A stretch of DNA of 64,000 nucleotides from Oceanimonas smirnovii ATCC BAA-899 (GTDB taxonomy: Bacteria; Pseudomonadota; Gammaproteobacteria; Enterobacterales; Aeromonadaceae), in contig NZ_KB908456.1 in the NCBI RefSeq assembly GCF_000381965.1, positions 124,001 through 188,000 of the forward strand, read 5' to 3'. The translations under genes were made by a program, and so were the position numbers. Shown here one piece after another: positions 3 to 13,505 of the stretch. The notes under the pieces were generated by a model. It was not told the origin of the DNA, did no database searches, and was given only the letters and a program-made list of their open reading frames with translations. The first letter of the stretch is position 1; the number at the start of each line of letters is the position of its first letter.

Positions 3-842
3 GCATCCTTTGAGGCGGTAGTGCTGCTGGAGCCGGTGACCACCGCCGAGCAGATTAATGCCGCTCAGGCCTTGCGCAACCAGCTGATTGCCACCTGGGG
101 CCGCTGGCAATTCATGATCCTGGCCACCAACGGCATTGTGACCGATGGTGTGGATGCCCAAGACTGGCCCGCCTATGAAGCGGCCATGGTGACGCTGGCC
201 GATGGCATTGCCGCCGACGGCGTGATGCTGGTGCCCCAGTTGCACGGCAACAATGCCGGCGTAATGGCCGGACGCCTGTGCAACCGCGCGGTGACCGTGG
301 CCGACACCCCCATGCGGGTGAAGACCGGGGCTGTGGTCGGTTTGGGCCCGGCACCGGTCGACAGCAACGGCACCGGGCTGTCTCTGGCTACCCTGCAGAC
401 CCTGGAAGCGGCCCGCTACTCCGTGCCCTGGTGGTTCCCGGATTATGACGGCGTGTACTGGGCCGACGGCAACATGCTGGACGTGTCCGGTGGTGACTAC
501 CAGGTGGTGGAAAACCGTCGGGTGGCCGACAAGGTAGCCCGCAAACTGCGCATTCGCGCCATTGGCCGCATTGGTGATCGCCAGCTCAACAGCACCCCGG
601 GCAGCATTGCCGCCGCCAAGCTTTATTTCATGCGCGATCTGCGTGTTATGAGCAAGTCGGTCACCATTGCCGGTGTCACCTTCCCCGGCGAAGTCATGCC
701 CCCCGACGATGGCGATATCGCCATTGAATGGCTGAGCAAGTACGAAGTGGCCATCTACGCCATGGTGCGCCCCTACGACTGCCCCAAGAAAATCACCATC
801 AACATCATCCTTGATCTCAGCAACCCGGGAGACAACCAATGA
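3..842 (+). CDS. Phage contractile tail sheath protein (DUF2586 family), 5' truncated
   Basis: The reading frame is open to the left edge of the window, so this is the C-terminal ~280 residues of a longer gene; the GTG at 21 is only an internal valine. The protein resembles the DUF2586 sheath family of P2-like phages and tailocins, which polymerises around the tail tube and contracts. I see the characteristic late part with a Gly/Pro-rich segment, a Trp-Trp-Phe-Pro-Asp-Tyr-Asp-Gly stretch and a C-terminal strand rich in Ile. It overlaps the tube gene by 4 bases (ATGA). The family call rests on recognition and on the sheath-then-tube gene order; no search was run. Confidence 0.82.
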   Translation, partial: ASFEAVVLLEPVTTAEQINAAQALRNQLIATWGRWQFMILATNGIVTDGVDAQDWPAYEAAMVTLADGIAADGVMLVPQLHGNNAGVMAGRLCNRAVTVADTPMRVKTGAVVGLGPAPVDSNGTGLSLATLQTLEAARYSVPWWFPDYDGVYWADGNMLDVSGGDYQVVENRRVADKVARKLRIRAIGRIGDRQLNSTPGSIAAAKLYFMRDLRVMSKSVTIAGVTFPGEVMPPDDGDIAIEWLSKYEVAIYAMVRPYDCPKKITINIILDLSNPGDNQ

Positions 843-1294
843 GCCGCCGCATTTCCGGTATGAACTTTGACGTGGAAATCCTGGGCACCATGATCCACGT
901 CGAGAAAGCCACCGTTACCATCAACGACAGCACCGCCGCTGCCCAGACCCGGGGCATTACCGACGGTTACGTGGATGGCGACGTCACCGCCGACGTGGAA
1001 TATGAACTGGATACCAAGAACTTTAACCTGCTCAGCGACGCGGCCGCCGGCGCCGGTTCGTGGCGGGGCATTGATCCCCACGATGCGCTGTTCTACGCCA
1101 AGGCCGACAAAGAAGAATTCCGCATTGAAGCCTTCGGCATCAAGCTGCAGATCTCCGACCTGCTCGATATAGACGGCAAGGGCGGCAGCAAGCAGGTGCA
1201 CAAGATTAAGGGCTTTGTCACCGATCCCGAGTTCGTGCGCATCAACGGCGTGCCCTACCTCTCCGCTGACGATACCCGTCACCTGATTGGATAA
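839..1294 (+). CDS. Phage tail tube protein (DUF2597 family)
   Basis: A 151-residue protein starting MSRRISGMNFDVEI, typical in size and start for the DUF2597 tail tube family that follows DUF2586 sheaths. It should form the inner hollow tube onto which the sheath assembles. The sequence is beta-rich with alternating hydrophobic residues and an early segment on ligand-free strands (VEKATVTIND). It overlaps the sheath stop codon by 4 bases, indicating translational coupling, and the next gene begins 5 bases after its stop. Confidence 0.8.
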   Translation: MSRRISGMNFDVEILGTMIHVEKATVTINDSTAAAQTRGITDGYVDGDVTADVEYELDTKNFNLLSDAAAGAGSWRGIDPHDALFYAKADKEEFRIEAFGIKLQISDLLDIDGKGGSKQVHKIKGFVTDPEFVRINGVPYLSADDTRHLIG

Positions 1295-2715: not shown

Positions 2716-2851
2716 GCCCGTTTTTACCGGCACCACCTACGGCGAGGCGGTGGCCTTTATTCCCGATCTGCAGGGTGCTCTGCGCCGCTGCCAAATACAA
2801 ATCGACACCCTGGAGCAATGGCTCCTTACCCAAGAAGGAATCGCACAATGA
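2552..2851 (+). CDS. Rz1-like o-spanin lipoprotein
   Basis: 99 residues in a different frame from Rz, starting inside it. It has a signal peptide ending in the lipobox LLSAC (Cys near residue 29), followed by a proline-rich stretch (PPPQVIIKPVPVLPPPG), the hallmark of outer-membrane Rz1 spanins. The C-terminal part beyond the Rz stop is longer than in lambda Rz1. The start codon is the least certain point. Its stop overlaps the tail chaperone ATG (ATGA). Confidence 0.82.
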   Translation: MPCNNTLPLCRQAARTVVASLCLLLLSACSAPPPQVIIKPVPVLPPPGLMPECPEPVFTGTTYGEAVAFIPDLQGALRRCQIQIDTLEQWLLTQEGIAQ

Positions 2852-3111
2852 GCAAGCAAATCATCACCCTGACCGTTAACGGCACTGATCTGGCGTTTGA
2901 GCCCACCACTCAAGCGTACAACAAGTACATCAACGAACTGACCATGGATGACAAGGTCGCTCCGGCACACAACTACCTGAACCGGGTGGTCACCGCCGAC
3001 AGCAAGGACGCCCTGGCCAAGCTGCTGAACCTCACCGGTGCCGGCCTCAAGATCGCCGCCAAGGTCAACGAGGCGTTCGTACCCGAGCTTGAGATCAGCA
3101 TAAAAAACTGA
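2848..3111 (+). CDS. Putative phage tail assembly chaperone (zero-frame product)
   Basis: 87 residues, beginning MSKQIITLTVNG, resembling short tail assembly chaperones of P2/Mu-like phages (Phage_TAC type). It sits directly before the tape measure gene, where lambda G/T, P2 E/E' and their counterparts lie. These proteins coat the tape measure during tail assembly. The last codons ATA-AAA-AAC-TGA contain a perfect slippery heptamer, and the -1 frame continues with a 63-codon extension, so this is the short, more abundant product of a two-product gene. Confidence 0.8.
   Translation: MSKQIITLTVNGTDLAFEPTTQAYNKYINELTMDDKVAPAHNYLNRVVTADSKDALAKLLNLTGAGLKIAAKVNEAFVPELEISIKN
3102..3108 (+). other. 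Programmed -1 ribosomal frameshift site (A AAA AAC)
   Basis: The heptamer A-AAA-AAC has the X-XXY-YYZ form in the correct register, with AAA and AAC being the last two sense codons before the zero-frame TGA at 3109-3111. A -1 slip avoids that stop and continues with CTG at 3108 for 63 codons. A small hairpin (TGACCC/GGGTTA with one G-U pair, loop GTC, 3109-3123) follows immediately. It is closer than the usual 5-9 base spacer, so its stimulatory role is uncertain. Confidence 0.8.
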
Positions 3112-3299
3112 CCCGTCGGGTTAACGCGATAGAGGGCAACCAGCTGGAGCAGGTACTGGCACTGCGCCGCCACTACCTGCCCCACGAACCCGACGATGAA
3201 GAAGCCCTGGCCCGGGCCATCTGGCTCGACAAACAGCACTGGGACAACACCGGCAACGCCATCGCAACCGGCATAGCAAAGGCATTTAACGGCACATGA
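3108..3299 (+). CDS. Frameshift extension of tail chaperone (DUF6890-like C-terminal domain)
   Basis: This 63-codon stretch has no plausible start codon of its own near its beginning but is fully open from the slippery site to the TGA at 3297-3299. Its translation contains LEQVLALRRHYLPHEPDDEE and ends GIAKAFNGT, which resembles small phage proteins annotated as DUF6890 next to tail chaperones. Fusion to the upstream 87 residues gives a 150-residue product analogous to lambda gpGT. Its stop overlaps the ATG of the tape measure gene (ATGA), the position expected for the T domain. Automatic annotation would probably miss it or call it a separate gene. Confidence 0.75.
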   Translation: MTRRVNAIEGNQLEQVLALRRHYLPHEPDDEEALARAIWLDKQHWDNTGNAIATGIAKAFNGT

Positions 3300-6172
3300 A
3301 GCACCTGGAACAATTAATGCTGACGGTGAGCCTGGTCGACAAGGTCACCCGGCCCATTCAGGGCATTAACCAGCAGATCAGGGAAACCGGAGAGCTGGGC
3401 CGCCAGAGCATGGACCGCATGATCAGCGGTGCTGCCGGTCTGGCGGCGTCTGGTGTGGCGCTGCATCAGGCGCTGATGCCCGCCATTGAAATGGACCGCG
3501 CCCTGGGAGAAGTGAAATCCCTGGGCGTGGCCGAGCAGGATCTTAATAAGCTCAGCCAAACCGCTACCGACTTTTCCATTGAGTTCGGCAAGTCGGCCAC
3601 CGAGTTTATTGGCGCGGCGTATGACATTAAGTCTGCCATGGGGGATCTGTCCGGTGACGAGCTGGCCGGCATTACCAAGTCGTCGGCCGTGCTGGCCGCG
3701 GCTACCAAGGCCGACACCGCCACCGTTACTGCCTACATGGGCACCATGTATGGTCTGTTCAAGCAGCAGGCCGATGCCATGGGCCGGGATAACTTCGCCG
3801 CCATGGTGGCCGGACAGACCGCGCAGGCGGTGGAGTCTTTCAAGACCACCGGCGCTGAAATGAGTGCCGCCTTTACCAGCATCGGTGCCGCCGGTACCGC
3901 CGCCGGCATTGCCATGAACGAGCAGATGGCGGTGCTCGGCACCCTGCAGGCCACCATGTCCGGCTCGGAAGCCGGTACCAAATACAAGGCGTTTCTGGCC
4001 GGCATTGCCGGTGCCCAGGACAAGCTCAATATGAGTTTTGTCGACGGCAACGGCAACATGCTGGGCATGGTGCAGATACTGCAAAAGCTGAAAGACAAAT
4101 TCGGCGACACCCTGACCGTGGCGGAATCGGATGCCCTGAAAAAGGCCTTCGGCTCTGATGAAGCCGTGGCCCTGATCAAACAGATGATCCCCGACGTGGA
4201 CGGCCTGGCACACAGCATCGACAACGTGGGCAAACAGACCGGCATGGACAAGGCCACTCAAATGGCCGGCACCATGACTGACCAGTGGGAACGGCTGGAA
4301 CAAGTCTGGTTTGCCCTGCGTGCCGGGGCCGGGGTCAGCGTGCTGCCCACCATCAATGCGGTGGTGGGCTCCATCGTGGATGGCATGGCCGTGCTGGTGG
4401 AATGGACCGACATGTTCCCCCATCTGACCGAAGTGGTGACCTGGGCCGCCATTGGCATTGCCAGCCTGACCGCCGTGGCCGCCAGCTGGACGCTGATCAG
4501 TGGCATTAGCAGCAGCATGTCACTGTTCTTTGGTCGCAGTATCAGCCTGTTGCTCAGCCCGCTCAAGCTGGTGCGTATGGCCATGGTGGCCATGCGTCCG
4601 GCACTGATTGGCCTTAACTTTTTGATGATGGCTAACCCTGCAGGCCTGATGATTGCCGGCATTGTGGGTGTGATTGCGGTGCTGGGAGCGGCAGCCATTG
4701 CGGTTTACAAGTTCTGGGAGCCCATCAAAGCCTTTATCAGCGGCTTTATTTCCGGCTTTACCCAAGCCGCCGGACTGAGCGAACTGTTTGCTCCCTTTGT
4801 GGGACTGTTCCGGTTGTTTTCTGCTGTACTCGGCTGGATTGGCGGCTTACTGGCCGATCTGTTTGGCTGGTTCACCGCCTTGATTGCACCGGTAGAAAGC
4901 ACCACTGAGCAGCTGGATGGCGTGGCTGAAGCAGGGCAAACCATCGGCAACGTCTTTGGCACCATCTTTAATGCCATCCTGTTTCCGATCCGCATGGCCG
5001 GCAAGCTGGTGCAATGGCTGCTGGAAAAACTGAACATGATCCCGGGGGTCGACATTGACCTGAGCGGAACCAACATGGATCTGCCGGATACCCCGGACAT
5101 GCCCGCCGTGATGCAGCAGGTTGAGCAAACAACGGGCGAGCTTCCCAAGGAGGCAGCCACCGTTCCCGCCCTTCCACCGGCCACTCAGCAGGTAGCCCGC
5201 ACCCTGCAGCCGGTACCAACGGACGTTGCCCCGGCCAGCCAGCAGGTAAACAGGAACTGGCCCGACGCCGCCAATACCGCGGTGCCGCCGGCCACCCAAC
5301 AGGTAGCCCGCACCCTGCAGCCGGTACCAATGGACGTTACCCCGGCCAACCAGCAGGTAAACAGAGACTGGCCCGACGCCGCCAATACCGCGGTGCCGCC
5401 GGCCACTCAGCAGGTGGCCCGTACTCTGCAGCCGGTGCCGATGGATATTCCCCCGATCAGCCAGCAGGTAAACAGGAACTGGCCCGACGCCGCTAATACC
5501 GCCGTGCCGGCTGCCAGCCAGATGGTGAACCAGCACTGGCCCGAGGCGGCCAATGCCGACCTGCCCGCTGCCACTCAGCAGGTGGCCCGCACGCTGCAGC
5601 CGGTGCCGATGGACGTTGCCCCGGCCAGCCAGCTGGTCAACCGACACTGGCCCGACGCCGCCAATACCGACCTGCCCGCTACCACTCAGCAGGTAGACCG
5701 CGATCTGCAGCCTGTGCAGGCAGAAATAGCGCCGTTGAAACAGGATGTATTCCGGGAATATTTCGACGATCTGGACTTTGAATTTTCGCCGGCCACTCAG
5801 GAGATAGAGCAGGTTTATACAGGCGGTACCCATATGGGCGGCTCTTTCATTCATAGCAATGAAGAGCTGTTTCTGCCGTCACTGGTGCCGGAGTCACCGC
5901 TGGCAAACACGCCACTCACTCAGCCGCGCTTTGATGATGCTCCGCAAGTGAACAGCGAACAGCTGATGGCCGGCATTAATGAGCGCCTGCGCACCACCCG
6001 CGCTCCGGAGTCGATGCAATCGCCGCCATCACCACTAATGCCGCAGCTGCTGAAAGTGGCCGGCCAGAACACCGGCAAAACCGTGCACTTTGGTGATGTG
6101 CATATCAAGAACGAACAGGGCATGGACCCGCAAACCCTGGCGGAATGGGAGGAACTGCAATATGGCTTCTGA
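3296..6172 (+). CDS. Phage tail tape measure protein (TP901-like core)
   Basis: 958 residues, the longest protein of the tail module except the fibre. The N-terminal half is a helical tape-measure core (TATDFSIEFGKSATEFIGAAYDIK region) with the repeated Ala/Gly-rich pattern of TP901 minor tail proteins. Three hydrophobic segments lie near residues 382-403, 440-473 and 500-532, probably used to insert into the host membrane on DNA entry. Residues ~627-805 are a tandem repeat of about 37 residues with the pattern ATQQVARTLQPVPMD. The length of such proteins sets tail length. The start is the ATG overlapping the frameshift product's stop. Confidence 0.85.
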   Translation: MKHLEQLMLTVSLVDKVTRPIQGINQQIRETGELGRQSMDRMISGAAGLAASGVALHQALMPAIEMDRALGEVKSLGVAEQDLNKLSQTATDFSIEFGKSATEFIGAAYDIKSAMGDLSGDELAGITKSSAVLAAATKADTATVTAYMGTMYGLFKQQADAMGRDNFAAMVAGQTAQAVESFKTTGAEMSAAFTSIGAAGTAAGIAMNEQMAVLGTLQATMSGSEAGTKYKAFLAGIAGAQDKLNMSFVDGNGNMLGMVQILQKLKDKFGDTLTVAESDALKKAFGSDEAVALIKQMIPDVDGLAHSIDNVGKQTGMDKATQMAGTMTDQWERLEQVWFALRAGAGVSVLPTINAVVGSIVDGMAVLVEWTDMFPHLTEVVTWAAIGIASLTAVAASWTLISGISSSMSLFFGRSISLLLSPLKLVRMAMVAMRPALIGLNFLMMANPAGLMIAGIVGVIAVLGAAAIAVYKFWEPIKAFISGFISGFTQAAGLSELFAPFVGLFRLFSAVLGWIGGLLADLFGWFTALIAPVESTTEQLDGVAEAGQTIGNVFGTIFNAILFPIRMAGKLVQWLLEKLNMIPGVDIDLSGTNMDLPDTPDMPAVMQQVEQTTGELPKEAATVPALPPATQQVARTLQPVPTDVAPASQQVNRNWPDAANTAVPPATQQVARTLQPVPMDVTPANQQVNRDWPDAANTAVPPATQQVARTLQPVPMDIPPISQQVNRNWPDAANTAVPAASQMVNQHWPEAANADLPAATQQVARTLQPVPMDVAPASQLVNRHWPDAANTDLPATTQQVDRDLQPVQAEIAPLKQDVFREYFDDLDFEFSPATQEIEQVYTGGTHMGGSFIHSNEELFLPSLVPESPLANTPLTQPRFDDAPQVNSEQLMAGINERLRTTRAPESMQSPPSPLMPQLLKVAGQNTGKTVHFGDVHIKNEQGMDPQTLAEWEELQYGF
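5176..5712 (+). repeat. In-frame tandem repeat in tape measure gene (~111 bp units)
   Basis: Four or more imperfect copies of a ~37-codon unit. Each contains a QQVARTLQPVP half and a QQVNRNWPDAANT half, and shorter half-units occur between them (for example MVNQHWPEAANADLP). Adjacent copies are nearly identical at the DNA level around the ATACCGCGGTGCCGCCGGCC junctions, so recent duplication is likely. The unit length being a multiple of three keeps the frame. Confidence 0.85.
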
Positions 6173-12094: not shown

Positions 12095-12969
12095 GCTGGT
12101 CCCGCACCTCACTGACCTGGCCGGCCAGCGCCGAAGATATCGCCTCAAAAGCGGATGCCGTATTGTCCCGCGTGGCCACCACTCAACAGCAGGCCATGGC
12201 AACGCTGAGCCAGGCCGCCGGGGCCGTCAGTTTTCGCCCTCACGCCTTAAGTGAAGAAGCCGCCCAGCTGACCCAGTTGCGCGCACTTATCGAGCAGATG
12301 CTGGTTACCGGACACCGCATTACGGTGACGCCCTATGATTACGGCGTGGGCCAGGTGGAAAGCAGTGGCAGTTATCTGGCCCCCGGCAACGCCGCCAGCC
12401 GCCTGGCTGAAAAGCTGCAGGGTGACGCCGCGCCACCGGGCTCACATGTGCAGGGCCTGCTGGTTACCGCCAACTCGCTGGCTGAATTTGCTGATGCACT
12501 GTCTGCACTGACGGCCGTGCTGCCCATTCCGGAGCTGTGTGCCTGTGCCCGGCGCAGCCAGGCAGAAAGCACCAATGCTCAGGATCGCATGCAAACCCCC
12601 ACCGGCAGTGCCACCCCCAAGTGGGTACCGGGCCGGCATCTGTTTGAGCCGTTGCGCTCCACCGTGGCCATTCTCGGTTCCAGCGTGGCGCAGCTGGAGT
12701 CACTGGCAGCAGATACCCAATCCCCCATCAACAAACTGCAGGCGCTGGCCAGCAAACGGGAAGCCTGGCTGGAGCAACAGAAACAGGCATTAAATGCCCT
12801 GAAAACCGGGCTGAACGGCAGCCTGTATGCCATGAATGGTTCCGGCTCTGCATCCGGCATTGCGGCCTCGTTATCATCCGGCCTGCCAAGCTACGAGCGG
12901 GCACATACCGCCGCTGTGCTGCTGGTATCCGAGCAGCCCATGACGTTTTTCAAGGAGTTGCTGCCATGA
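12091..12969 (+). CDS. Phage protein of unknown function (292 aa)
   Basis: Unrecognised. The sequence is Ala/Ser/Gln-rich and mostly helical, with a long amphipathic segment (residues ~195-245, LESLAADTQSPINKLQALAS and following), suggesting a coiled coil, and a more ordered middle (HRITVTPYDYGVGQVESSGS). The C-terminal residues YERAHTAAVLLVS follow a Ser/Gly-rich linker. It overlaps both neighbours by 4 bases and is located between fibre and hub-spike genes, so a baseplate or spike-associated role is likely. Genes of this type occur in P2-like elements with DUF2586 sheaths. Confidence 0.65.
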   Translation: MSWSRTSLTWPASAEDIASKADAVLSRVATTQQQAMATLSQAAGAVSFRPHALSEEAAQLTQLRALIEQMLVTGHRITVTPYDYGVGQVESSGSYLAPGNAASRLAEKLQGDAAPPGSHVQGLLVTANSLAEFADALSALTAVLPIPELCACARRSQAESTNAQDRMQTPTGSATPKWVPGRHLFEPLRSTVAILGSSVAQLESLAADTQSPINKLQALASKREAWLEQQKQALNALKTGLNGSLYAMNGSGSASGIAASLSSGLPSYERAHTAAVLLVSEQPMTFFKELLP

Positions 12970-13505
12970 TCGCGCTCGACGGCGAATTGCTGCGCCTCAA
13001 GTCTCCCCGCATCACCCTGAGCATGGAGTTCAAGGAAAAGGACACGTCCGGGCAAACATCCAATACCAGCACGGCAGAGCAGGGAGAAAAGGGCAAAGAG
13101 CTGCAGATAACCGGCTTGGTCCCGTTTAAAGACCAGGCCGCCCTGACTCGCCTGTTTGAACTTGCCCAAAGCAAAGAGGACGGTAACAACCGCAAAATCT
13201 ACCGTATCGGCTGCGAACTGGCGGAAGCGGTAAAGATTTACCAGGTAAAGTTTGCCGGCCGCATTATGGCCCCTGAGCAGGAAGGGCTGCTGGCCTGGCG
13301 GGTATCTTTCACCCTGCGTGAGCACCTGTCTGTACCAGAAAAACGCGAACAACGCGCATCAAAACCAGCGGCCACAGTTGGCCAGAGCACTGCAGGCACC
13401 AGCACGGTATCACCACCGCCGGCCGCCCAAGGTGGAGAGCAACGCGAATTAAACGGATTTGAGAAAAAACTGAAGGTTTTAGACGATATCCTGGCTGGAG
13501 ACTGA
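12966..13505 (+). CDS. Phage protein of unknown function, probably baseplate/hub-associated (179 aa)
   Basis: A 179-residue protein whose N-terminal ~120 residues are strand-rich (MIALDGELLRLKSPRITLSM; LQITGLVPFKDQAALTRLF; GRIMAPEQEGLLAWRVSF), then a Pro/Ala/Thr linker and a charged C-terminal helix (NGFEKKLKVLDDILAGD). The N-terminal part recalls the small membrane-puncturing or DNA-circularisation/hub connector proteins of Mu-like tails, but I cannot name the family. It overlaps the upstream gene by 4 bases and ends 2 bases before the hub-spike start, suggesting it works with that protein. Confidence 0.62.
   Translation: MIALDGELLRLKSPRITLSMEFKEKDTSGQTSNTSTAEQGEKGKELQITGLVPFKDQAALTRLFELAQSKEDGNNRKIYRIGCELAEAVKIYQVKFAGRIMAPEQEGLLAWRVSFTLREHLSVPEKREQRASKPAATVGQSTAGTSTVSPPPAAQGGEQRELNGFEKKLKVLDDILAGD

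Follow-up and report, generated by a model that had tools for sequence, protein, structure and literature searches.

Evidence for a programmed -1 frameshift in the tail chaperone gene of HP1-subgroup phages and for RNA pairing downstream of its slip site

Our analysis of the window, the whole stretch of 64,000 nucleotides of Oceanimonas smirnovii ATCC BAA-899 DNA that was examined, makes it very probable that an HP1-subgroup prophage produces two versions of its tail chaperone by a programmed -1 frameshift. The case is built on sequence comparison, which establishes the reading frame, the slippery heptamer, the two domains and their conservation, as well as selection at a silent site and for RNA pairing. 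As such, the frameshift is the standard arrangement of tailed phages, representing the HP1-subgroup counterpart of E/E+E' of phage P2 and G/GT of phage lambda. The unusual part of the system, as seen in predicted folds, is an anchored RNA arm with a changing partner.

Matches to Pfam and phrog profiles delineate the tail operon of an HP1-subgroup (Peduoviridae) prophage at the start of the window. A DUF2586 protein that is sheath-like by position (21-842) is followed by a tail tube-like protein of the HP1 Orf24 family (839-1294, forward strand; PF10772, E 7.7e-68; phrog_1182, 'tail protein'), by a DksA-like protein, a holin, an endolysin and an Rz1-like spanin (1300-2851), by the zero-frame product of the tail assembly chaperone gene (87 residues, 2848-3111, forward strand) and by the tape measure protein (3296-6172, forward strand; phrog_28, E 5e-105; PF10145, E 1.6e-27). 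The chaperone gene (PF10963) thus lies directly upstream of the tape measure gene (phrog_28), as is typical of tailed-phage tail chaperones. Of 17 annotated phage records, 16 label the gene after the chaperone as a tail length or tape measure protein, and that of HP1 calls it 'hypothetical'. The lysis genes are interposed between the tube-like gene on one side and the chaperone on the other, and the stop of the Rz1-like spanin overlaps the chaperone start (ATGA, 2848-2851).

The 3' end of the chaperone gene reads ATA (3100-3102), AAA (3103-3105), AAC (3106-3108) and TGA (3109-3111), and hence contains a canonical X_XXY_YYZ heptamer in the right frame, A_AAA_AAC, at 3102-3108 of the forward strand with the zero-frame stop immediately 3' of it. 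The -1 frame is open from 3105 to a TGA at 3297-3299 (forward strand, 64 codons and the stop), and since one of these codons is shared with the last codon of the chaperone, the predicted fusion has 150 residues. From the upstream stop through to its end this frame in the window is devoid of ATG, GTG and TTG, and its stop overlaps the tape measure ATG at 3296 (ATGA, 3296-3299). In all these respects, namely the heptamer on the last two sense codons, the 63 further codons without a start of their own and the overlap with the tape measure, the preliminary description was accurate. The length of the open frame is in itself weak evidence, because a -1 frame of 63 codons is equally open in 1135 of 5000 first-order random sequences, and we discarded it as an argument for frameshifting; it is the homology of the extension and the conservation of the heptamer that take the observation beyond chance.

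Both parts of the predicted fusion belong to recognized protein families. The chaperone matches PF10963 (Phage_TAC_10) over residues 6-87 of 87 (E 2e-39; 134.1 bits against a curated cut-off of 25.7), and the extension matches PF21830 (DUF6890) over residues 20-63 (E 9.5e-24; 83.3 bits against a cut-off of 23.6). A startless second domain in the -1 frame, joined to the first at a slippery heptamer, is the configuration known from the frameshifted chaperones of tailed phages. In AlphaFold2 models the chaperone adopts a small fold of mixed type (pLDDT 92.6) and the extension consists of three helices (pLDDT 95.7). A fold search of the PDB with the chaperone model recovered a sole standout, the uncharacterised Bacillus stearothermophilus protein 3fgx (TM 0.77, E 0.0097), which on the strength of this model may be an unrecognised tail chaperone. 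The DUF6890 model found nothing in a library of viral structures (best E 0.54), and the word DUF6890 was not encountered in the literature searched, most subscription journals lying outside it. Pfam DUF6848 is also matched by 7 of 66 relatives of the chaperone.

To place the junction in an evolutionary context, 227 loci, including that of the window, were gathered by their protein domains and not by the heptamer; they comprise 17 named phages, with viral contigs, genomes and genome contigs making up the rest, and several are copies of one another. A class-wide genome search for DUF6890 yielded matches in 2 of 369 genomes, and the nearest named match of the second domain among genome contigs, in Oceanimonas baumannii, is identical over 64 residues. 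The second domain is present in 226 of the 227 loci, the exception (L151) ending about 60 bases after a GTAAAAAAATAG. At the junction all 226 loci with the second domain, or 168 unique sequences, carry AAAAAA and then C, A or G (149, 18 and 1 unique sequences respectively), and the stop follows directly in 165 of the 168. In the remaining three the next codon is TCG (two) or CCC (one). Thus the comparison with relatives that the preliminary description had put forward shows heptamer and frame to be conserved throughout, and the two findings it had named as contrary, a second domain without the heptamer and a heptamer lost by silent variation, were not seen in any of the 226 loci. A profile derived from these genes themselves places the chaperone in frame before the heptamer across the loci. 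Independently of it, the window's chaperone and extension, used as tblastn queries, were both recovered in 42 of the first 44 loci and invariably stood in the same frame relation, and Pfam recovered Phage_TAC_10 in 66 of 66 chaperones (the window and 65 relatives) and DUF6890 in 68 of 68 extensions (the window and 67 relatives). Among 74 representatives chosen at no more than 90% DNA identity, a tape measure start was found in 73, and the offset between stop and start is that of the window in 27. Given this overlap, translation of the tape measure may be fed in part by shifted ribosomes.

The codon before AAA provides a further line of evidence, as it ends in A in all 168 unique sequences (GTA 119, ATA 32, CTA 15, TTA 1 and GCA 1). 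Among the representatives the A is present in 74 of 74, as against 230 of 1535 (15%) of the other Val, Ile and Leu codons of the same genes, and ATA precedes AAA in 12 of them, yet accounts for 11 of 502 of the other Ile codons. By this comparison of codons the invariant A indicates selection at a silent site. Minor variation is seen elsewhere at the junction. The heptamer A_AAA_AAA replaces A_AAA_AAC in 18 of the 168 unique sequences (L008, L010, L012, L013, L017, L018, L148, L221, L224 and others), which include several Vibrio and other marine phages and also enterobacterial loci, and A_AAA_AAG occurs once, in L019. The three sequences without an immediate stop (L019, L011 and L153) have their zero-frame stop 21-36 nt further on. 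In an Enterobacter locus (L218) just 41 zero-frame codons are open ahead of the heptamer, and its chaperone reads as interrupted.

Gene callers tend to miss or mislabel the second domain, as had been anticipated from the window: among the 17 annotated phage records 11, including those of HP1, HP2 and K139, lack any annotation of it, 5 call a separate ORF that begins at codon 5 or 16 of the -1 frame, and one joins it to the chaperone. The latter, the GenBank record of Pseudoalteromonas phage ACA1, describes a 'projected programmed frameshift analogous to that in phage P2', and the HP1-subgroup frameshift was therefore already foreseen in at least one GenBank record; in the accessible portion of the ACA1 paper the word frameshift is used once, for a reverse transcriptase (PMC10612066). 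An annotation rule for HP1-type phages, NTA AAA AA[C/A] followed by a stop ahead of the tape measure gene, would recover the domain in the 11 records in which it was left out.

The RNA downstream of the slip site in the window is predicted to form a stem of 9 bp, in which the 5' arm CGUCGGGUU (3114-3122, forward strand) pairs with the 3' arm AACCCGACG (3187-3195, forward strand) with a mean pair probability of 0.96-0.98 in folds of 90-300 nt. The 5' arm occupies bases 6-14 after the heptamer, leaving an ordinary spacer of 5 nt, and the prediction accords with canonical signals, in which structure sets in some 5-9 nt beyond the heptamer. The outer stem encloses an inner stem-loop (3145-3184, forward strand; GCAGGUA/UACCUGC and UGGC/GCCA) whose 7-bp part has a pair probability of 0.99, maintained up to 300 nt; the two stems together have a dG of -34.4. 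The 90-nt fold of the window departs from dinucleotide shuffles (z -4.48, 0 of 200) and from 100 synonymous shuffles (z -2.27), and the shorter folds are ordinary against synonymous shuffles (z -1.24 at 40 nt and -0.1 at 64 nt). The preliminary description had instead pointed to a 6-bp hairpin with almost no spacer. This hairpin (3109-3114/3118-3123, dG -5.2) exists as a string of letters, but its probability falls from 0.66 at 60 nt to 0.21 at 80 nt and to 0.02 or less in folds of 90-300 nt, and it was accordingly rejected.

In the seven sequences of the window's own clade 98% of the cells of the inner stem-loop and 87% of those of the outer stem are paired, and most inner pairs recur in the Aeromonas consensus. 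One outer pair is changed on both sides in three sequences, and three of the nine fail to form in some members of the clade (3, 1 and 4 sequences). Against shuffles the number of paired cells is high (1 of 500), and the number of pairs changed on both sides (2) is matched in 213 of 500; this suggests that covariation support for the stem in this clade is modest. In the block through which its nearest relative L024 pairs, the window forms 0.0 pairs, fewer than the 1.4 of shuffles (127 of 150 equally high or higher). The partner of this 5' arm in L022 and L024 lies around +96 to +110, and L027 shares the window's block weakly (23 of 150).

Pairing was then compared over all 74 representatives with shuffles that preserve the extension protein and its codons. 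The mean fold z is -0.93, -1.39, -1.84, -2.22 and -1.95 at 40, 64, 90, 120 and 159 nt respectively. In positional statistics, weighted over 29 clusters, the probability that a base acts as 5' partner at +8 to +10 after the heptamer is 0.926, as against 0.654 in shuffles (z 6.8, 0 of 300), the random seeds of this test not having been fixed, so that the last digits would vary on repetition. Enrichment extends from +7 to +16 (0 of 300), with +11 to +16 likewise raised (0 of 300), and there is none at +1 to +6 (198 of 300), +20 to +30 (139), +40 to +50 (66) or +60 to +70 (51). Stimulators usually begin 5-8 or 6-9 nt downstream of the slip site according to excerpts of PMC4066793 and PMC5009743, and this is the range in which the predicted arm lies.

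The predicted 3' partner, in contrast to the 5' arm, differs by lineage, lying at about +28-39, +45-57, +72-93 or +99-110, so that the attempt to describe the family by one consensus fold was given up. Within lineages the partner appears to be inherited: representatives retain on average 6.37 pairs of their nearest relative's block, where shuffles retain 2.48 (0 of 150), and this persists for the 27 representatives whose nearest relative is less than 80% identical (0 of 150). The block of a far lineage is not retained (0.32 versus 0.76), which is a mere check, the far sequences having been chosen for possessing another block. When representatives are binned into classes by predicted partner position, retention is seen in A, B and D (0 of 150 each) and in C (1 of 150), and is not clear in E (two sequences, 17 of 150) and in the weak class w (52 of 150), whose nine of the 74 members show no inherited stem. 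On a tree of the representatives (74 rows, 143 columns), in which many forks are unresolved, these labels, weak in nine of the 74, change 24 times as against a shuffled mean of 40.8, a value as low being reached in 0 of 200 shuffles. Covariation is seen in 20 enterobacterial sequences, selected after the folds had been inspected, in which a helix joining +9 to +16 with +32 to +39 has 4 of its 8 pairs changed on both sides (0 of 500) and 96.9% of its cells paired; four of five measures exceed all 500 shuffles, the number of further pair types being the exception (69 of 500), and slid versions of the helix all score far lower. For the 44 sequences of the Aeromonas clade, RNAalifold predicts 26 pairs, just one of which is changed on both sides, and the clade is too conserved for covariation to be assessed.

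Taken together, these patterns lead us to favour, with considerable reserve, the view that the HP1-subgroup stimulator is an anchored and re-paired RNA element, whose 5' arm would be held some 6-16 nt after the slip site as its 3' partner was repeatedly replaced. On the same guarded reading, the partner swaps would span about 30 to 110 nt downstream within a coding region under protein constraint, and selection would maintain a position and an obstacle, not one fold. The family thereby offers natural variants in which slip site and spacing are nearly constant and the partner of the stimulator varies, so that the requirements on a stimulator could be tested over many evolved solutions. A search of titles and the beginnings of abstracts, with subscription journals mostly outside its reach, gave no paper on the HP1-subgroup stimulator among the matches listed, which is no proof of absence.

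Some of these observations could be accommodated by two separate genes, in which ribosomes that have terminated on the chaperone reinitiate at an internal start belonging to DUF6890 and the A6 run is incidental. A separate small ORF is called in 5 of the 17 annotated records, and 38 of the 74 representatives have an ATG, GTG or TTG within the first 24 codons of the extension, the first of them at codon 3 (1), 5 (11), 13 (3), 16 (12), 17 (2), 18 (1) or 19 (8); ORFs beginning there would retain nearly all of the Pfam core, which starts at residue 20 in the window. However, the window and 36 of the 74 representatives have no such start, and the possible starts differ in both place and codon. Moreover, the extension is conserved right up to the heptamer (K1, I9 and Q16), with residues 9 and 16 at least 90% conserved ahead of most possible starts, and the heptamer and the silent A ahead of its AAA are invariant, all of which makes separate genes highly improbable. 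A second alternative would have the RNA polymerase, and not the ribosome, slip on the A run. The run measures six A in 150 and seven in 18 of the 168 unique sequences, and one extra A, or two missing ones, would account for the frame relation. Nevertheless, runs of six or seven A are short for transcriptional slippage, and selection for a stem at a ribosomal spacing suits translation, so that we regard polymerase slippage as hardly credible here.

A less radical alternative, which concerns the stem and not the shift, is that frameshifting is real but independent of any stem, the pairing signal reflecting a codon or GC preference. Its appeal derives from P2-type sites: no hairpin was reported for P2 and three Burkholderia relatives in the portion of PMC3091744 consulted, where 60 bp were screened in the Burkholderia relatives, and our own P2-type control is not significant (0.557 versus 0.464, 31 of 200 shuffles as high), being limited to the 7 sequences with a usable T6N site among 10 genome loci and P2, with 80 viral loci 100% identical to the query left out. 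Against it, the shuffles hold both protein and codons constant, the enrichment is confined to +7 to +16, the nearest relative's pairing block is kept on average, and one clade, the enterobacterial, displays covariation. We consider this alternative unlikely, and the predicted HP1-subgroup stem stands in contrast to the P2-type sites, for which a hairpin is not reported.

Under the favoured frameshift reading, most ribosomes would terminate at the TGA at 3109 and release the 87-residue protein. A minority would be paused by the RNA stem, whose first base pair involves base 6 downstream of the heptamer, shift back by one base on A_AAA_AAC and continue for 63 more codons, giving the 150-residue fusion with DUF6890 that ends on the tape measure start codon. 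In E. coli A_AAA_AAC is much less shift-prone than A_AAA_AAG (excerpt of PMC5009743), and a stimulator such as a pausing stem is therefore to be expected. On the model of lambda G/GT, the short form would be expected to cover the tape measure, to which the DUF6890 extension would recruit tail-tube subunits, with the ratio of the two being of importance. We infer that shifting occurs, and with what frequency, that the stem drives it and what the two products do. An upstream Shine-Dalgarno-like element, an optional stimulator in such signals, was not detected among the 74 representatives (mean -3.26 versus -3.63 for synonymous shuffles).

Of the characterized systems, the preliminary description had invoked lambda G/GT. 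A chaperone made in two forms by frameshifting is strongly supported by the comparison, but the context is nearer to P2 E/E+E', also of the Peduoviridae. As in P2, the chaperone lies just ahead of the tape measure, the -1 shift falls on a homopolymer heptamer and the extension overlaps the start of the tape measure gene (T in P2). The P2 slip site differs, however, in being T_TTT_TTG and lying 18 nt ahead of the zero-frame stop, and the P2 proteins belong to PF10109 (gpE) and PF06528 (gpE'), neither of which is matched by the window proteins in Pfam at E up to 1; hhalign gave probabilities of 0.2% and 0.3%, a weak test with single P2 sequences. Within the HP1 subgroup, ACA1 gp36/gp36a and HP1 orf26 share both families and the junction. 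HP1 has AAAAAAC followed by TAA, with its extension unannotated, whereas ACA1 has A_AAA_AAA with the zero-frame stop 21 nt later, and the records and the part of the paper examined describe no stem for either phage. Lambda is a siphovirus with the slip site G_GGA_AAG, and the likeness to it is drawn from arrangement, not sequence. It too has a short and a frameshift-extended chaperone in a set ratio, its G part attaching to the tape measure and its T part to the tube protein (excerpts of PMC5009743), and a similar division of binding presumably applies here. The E. coli dnaX and IS3-family signals resemble the present one in combining an A-rich heptamer with an RNA structure further 3', most often from 5-8 nt onward (PMC4066793, in part), and the dnaX site is A_AAA_AAG (PMC5009743, in part). 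They differ from the window in that the latter is without an upstream Shine-Dalgarno-like element and has AAC, not AAG, as the A-site codon.

A second copy of AAAAAACTGA in the window, at 13464-13473, is read as AAA AAA CTG within the ORF 12966-13505 and was dismissed as a site of this kind. The tape measure gene contains tandem repeats of about 111 bp between 5177 and 5717, in rows of 3.1 and 1.8 copies, which give rise to repeated QQV...P segments in the protein.
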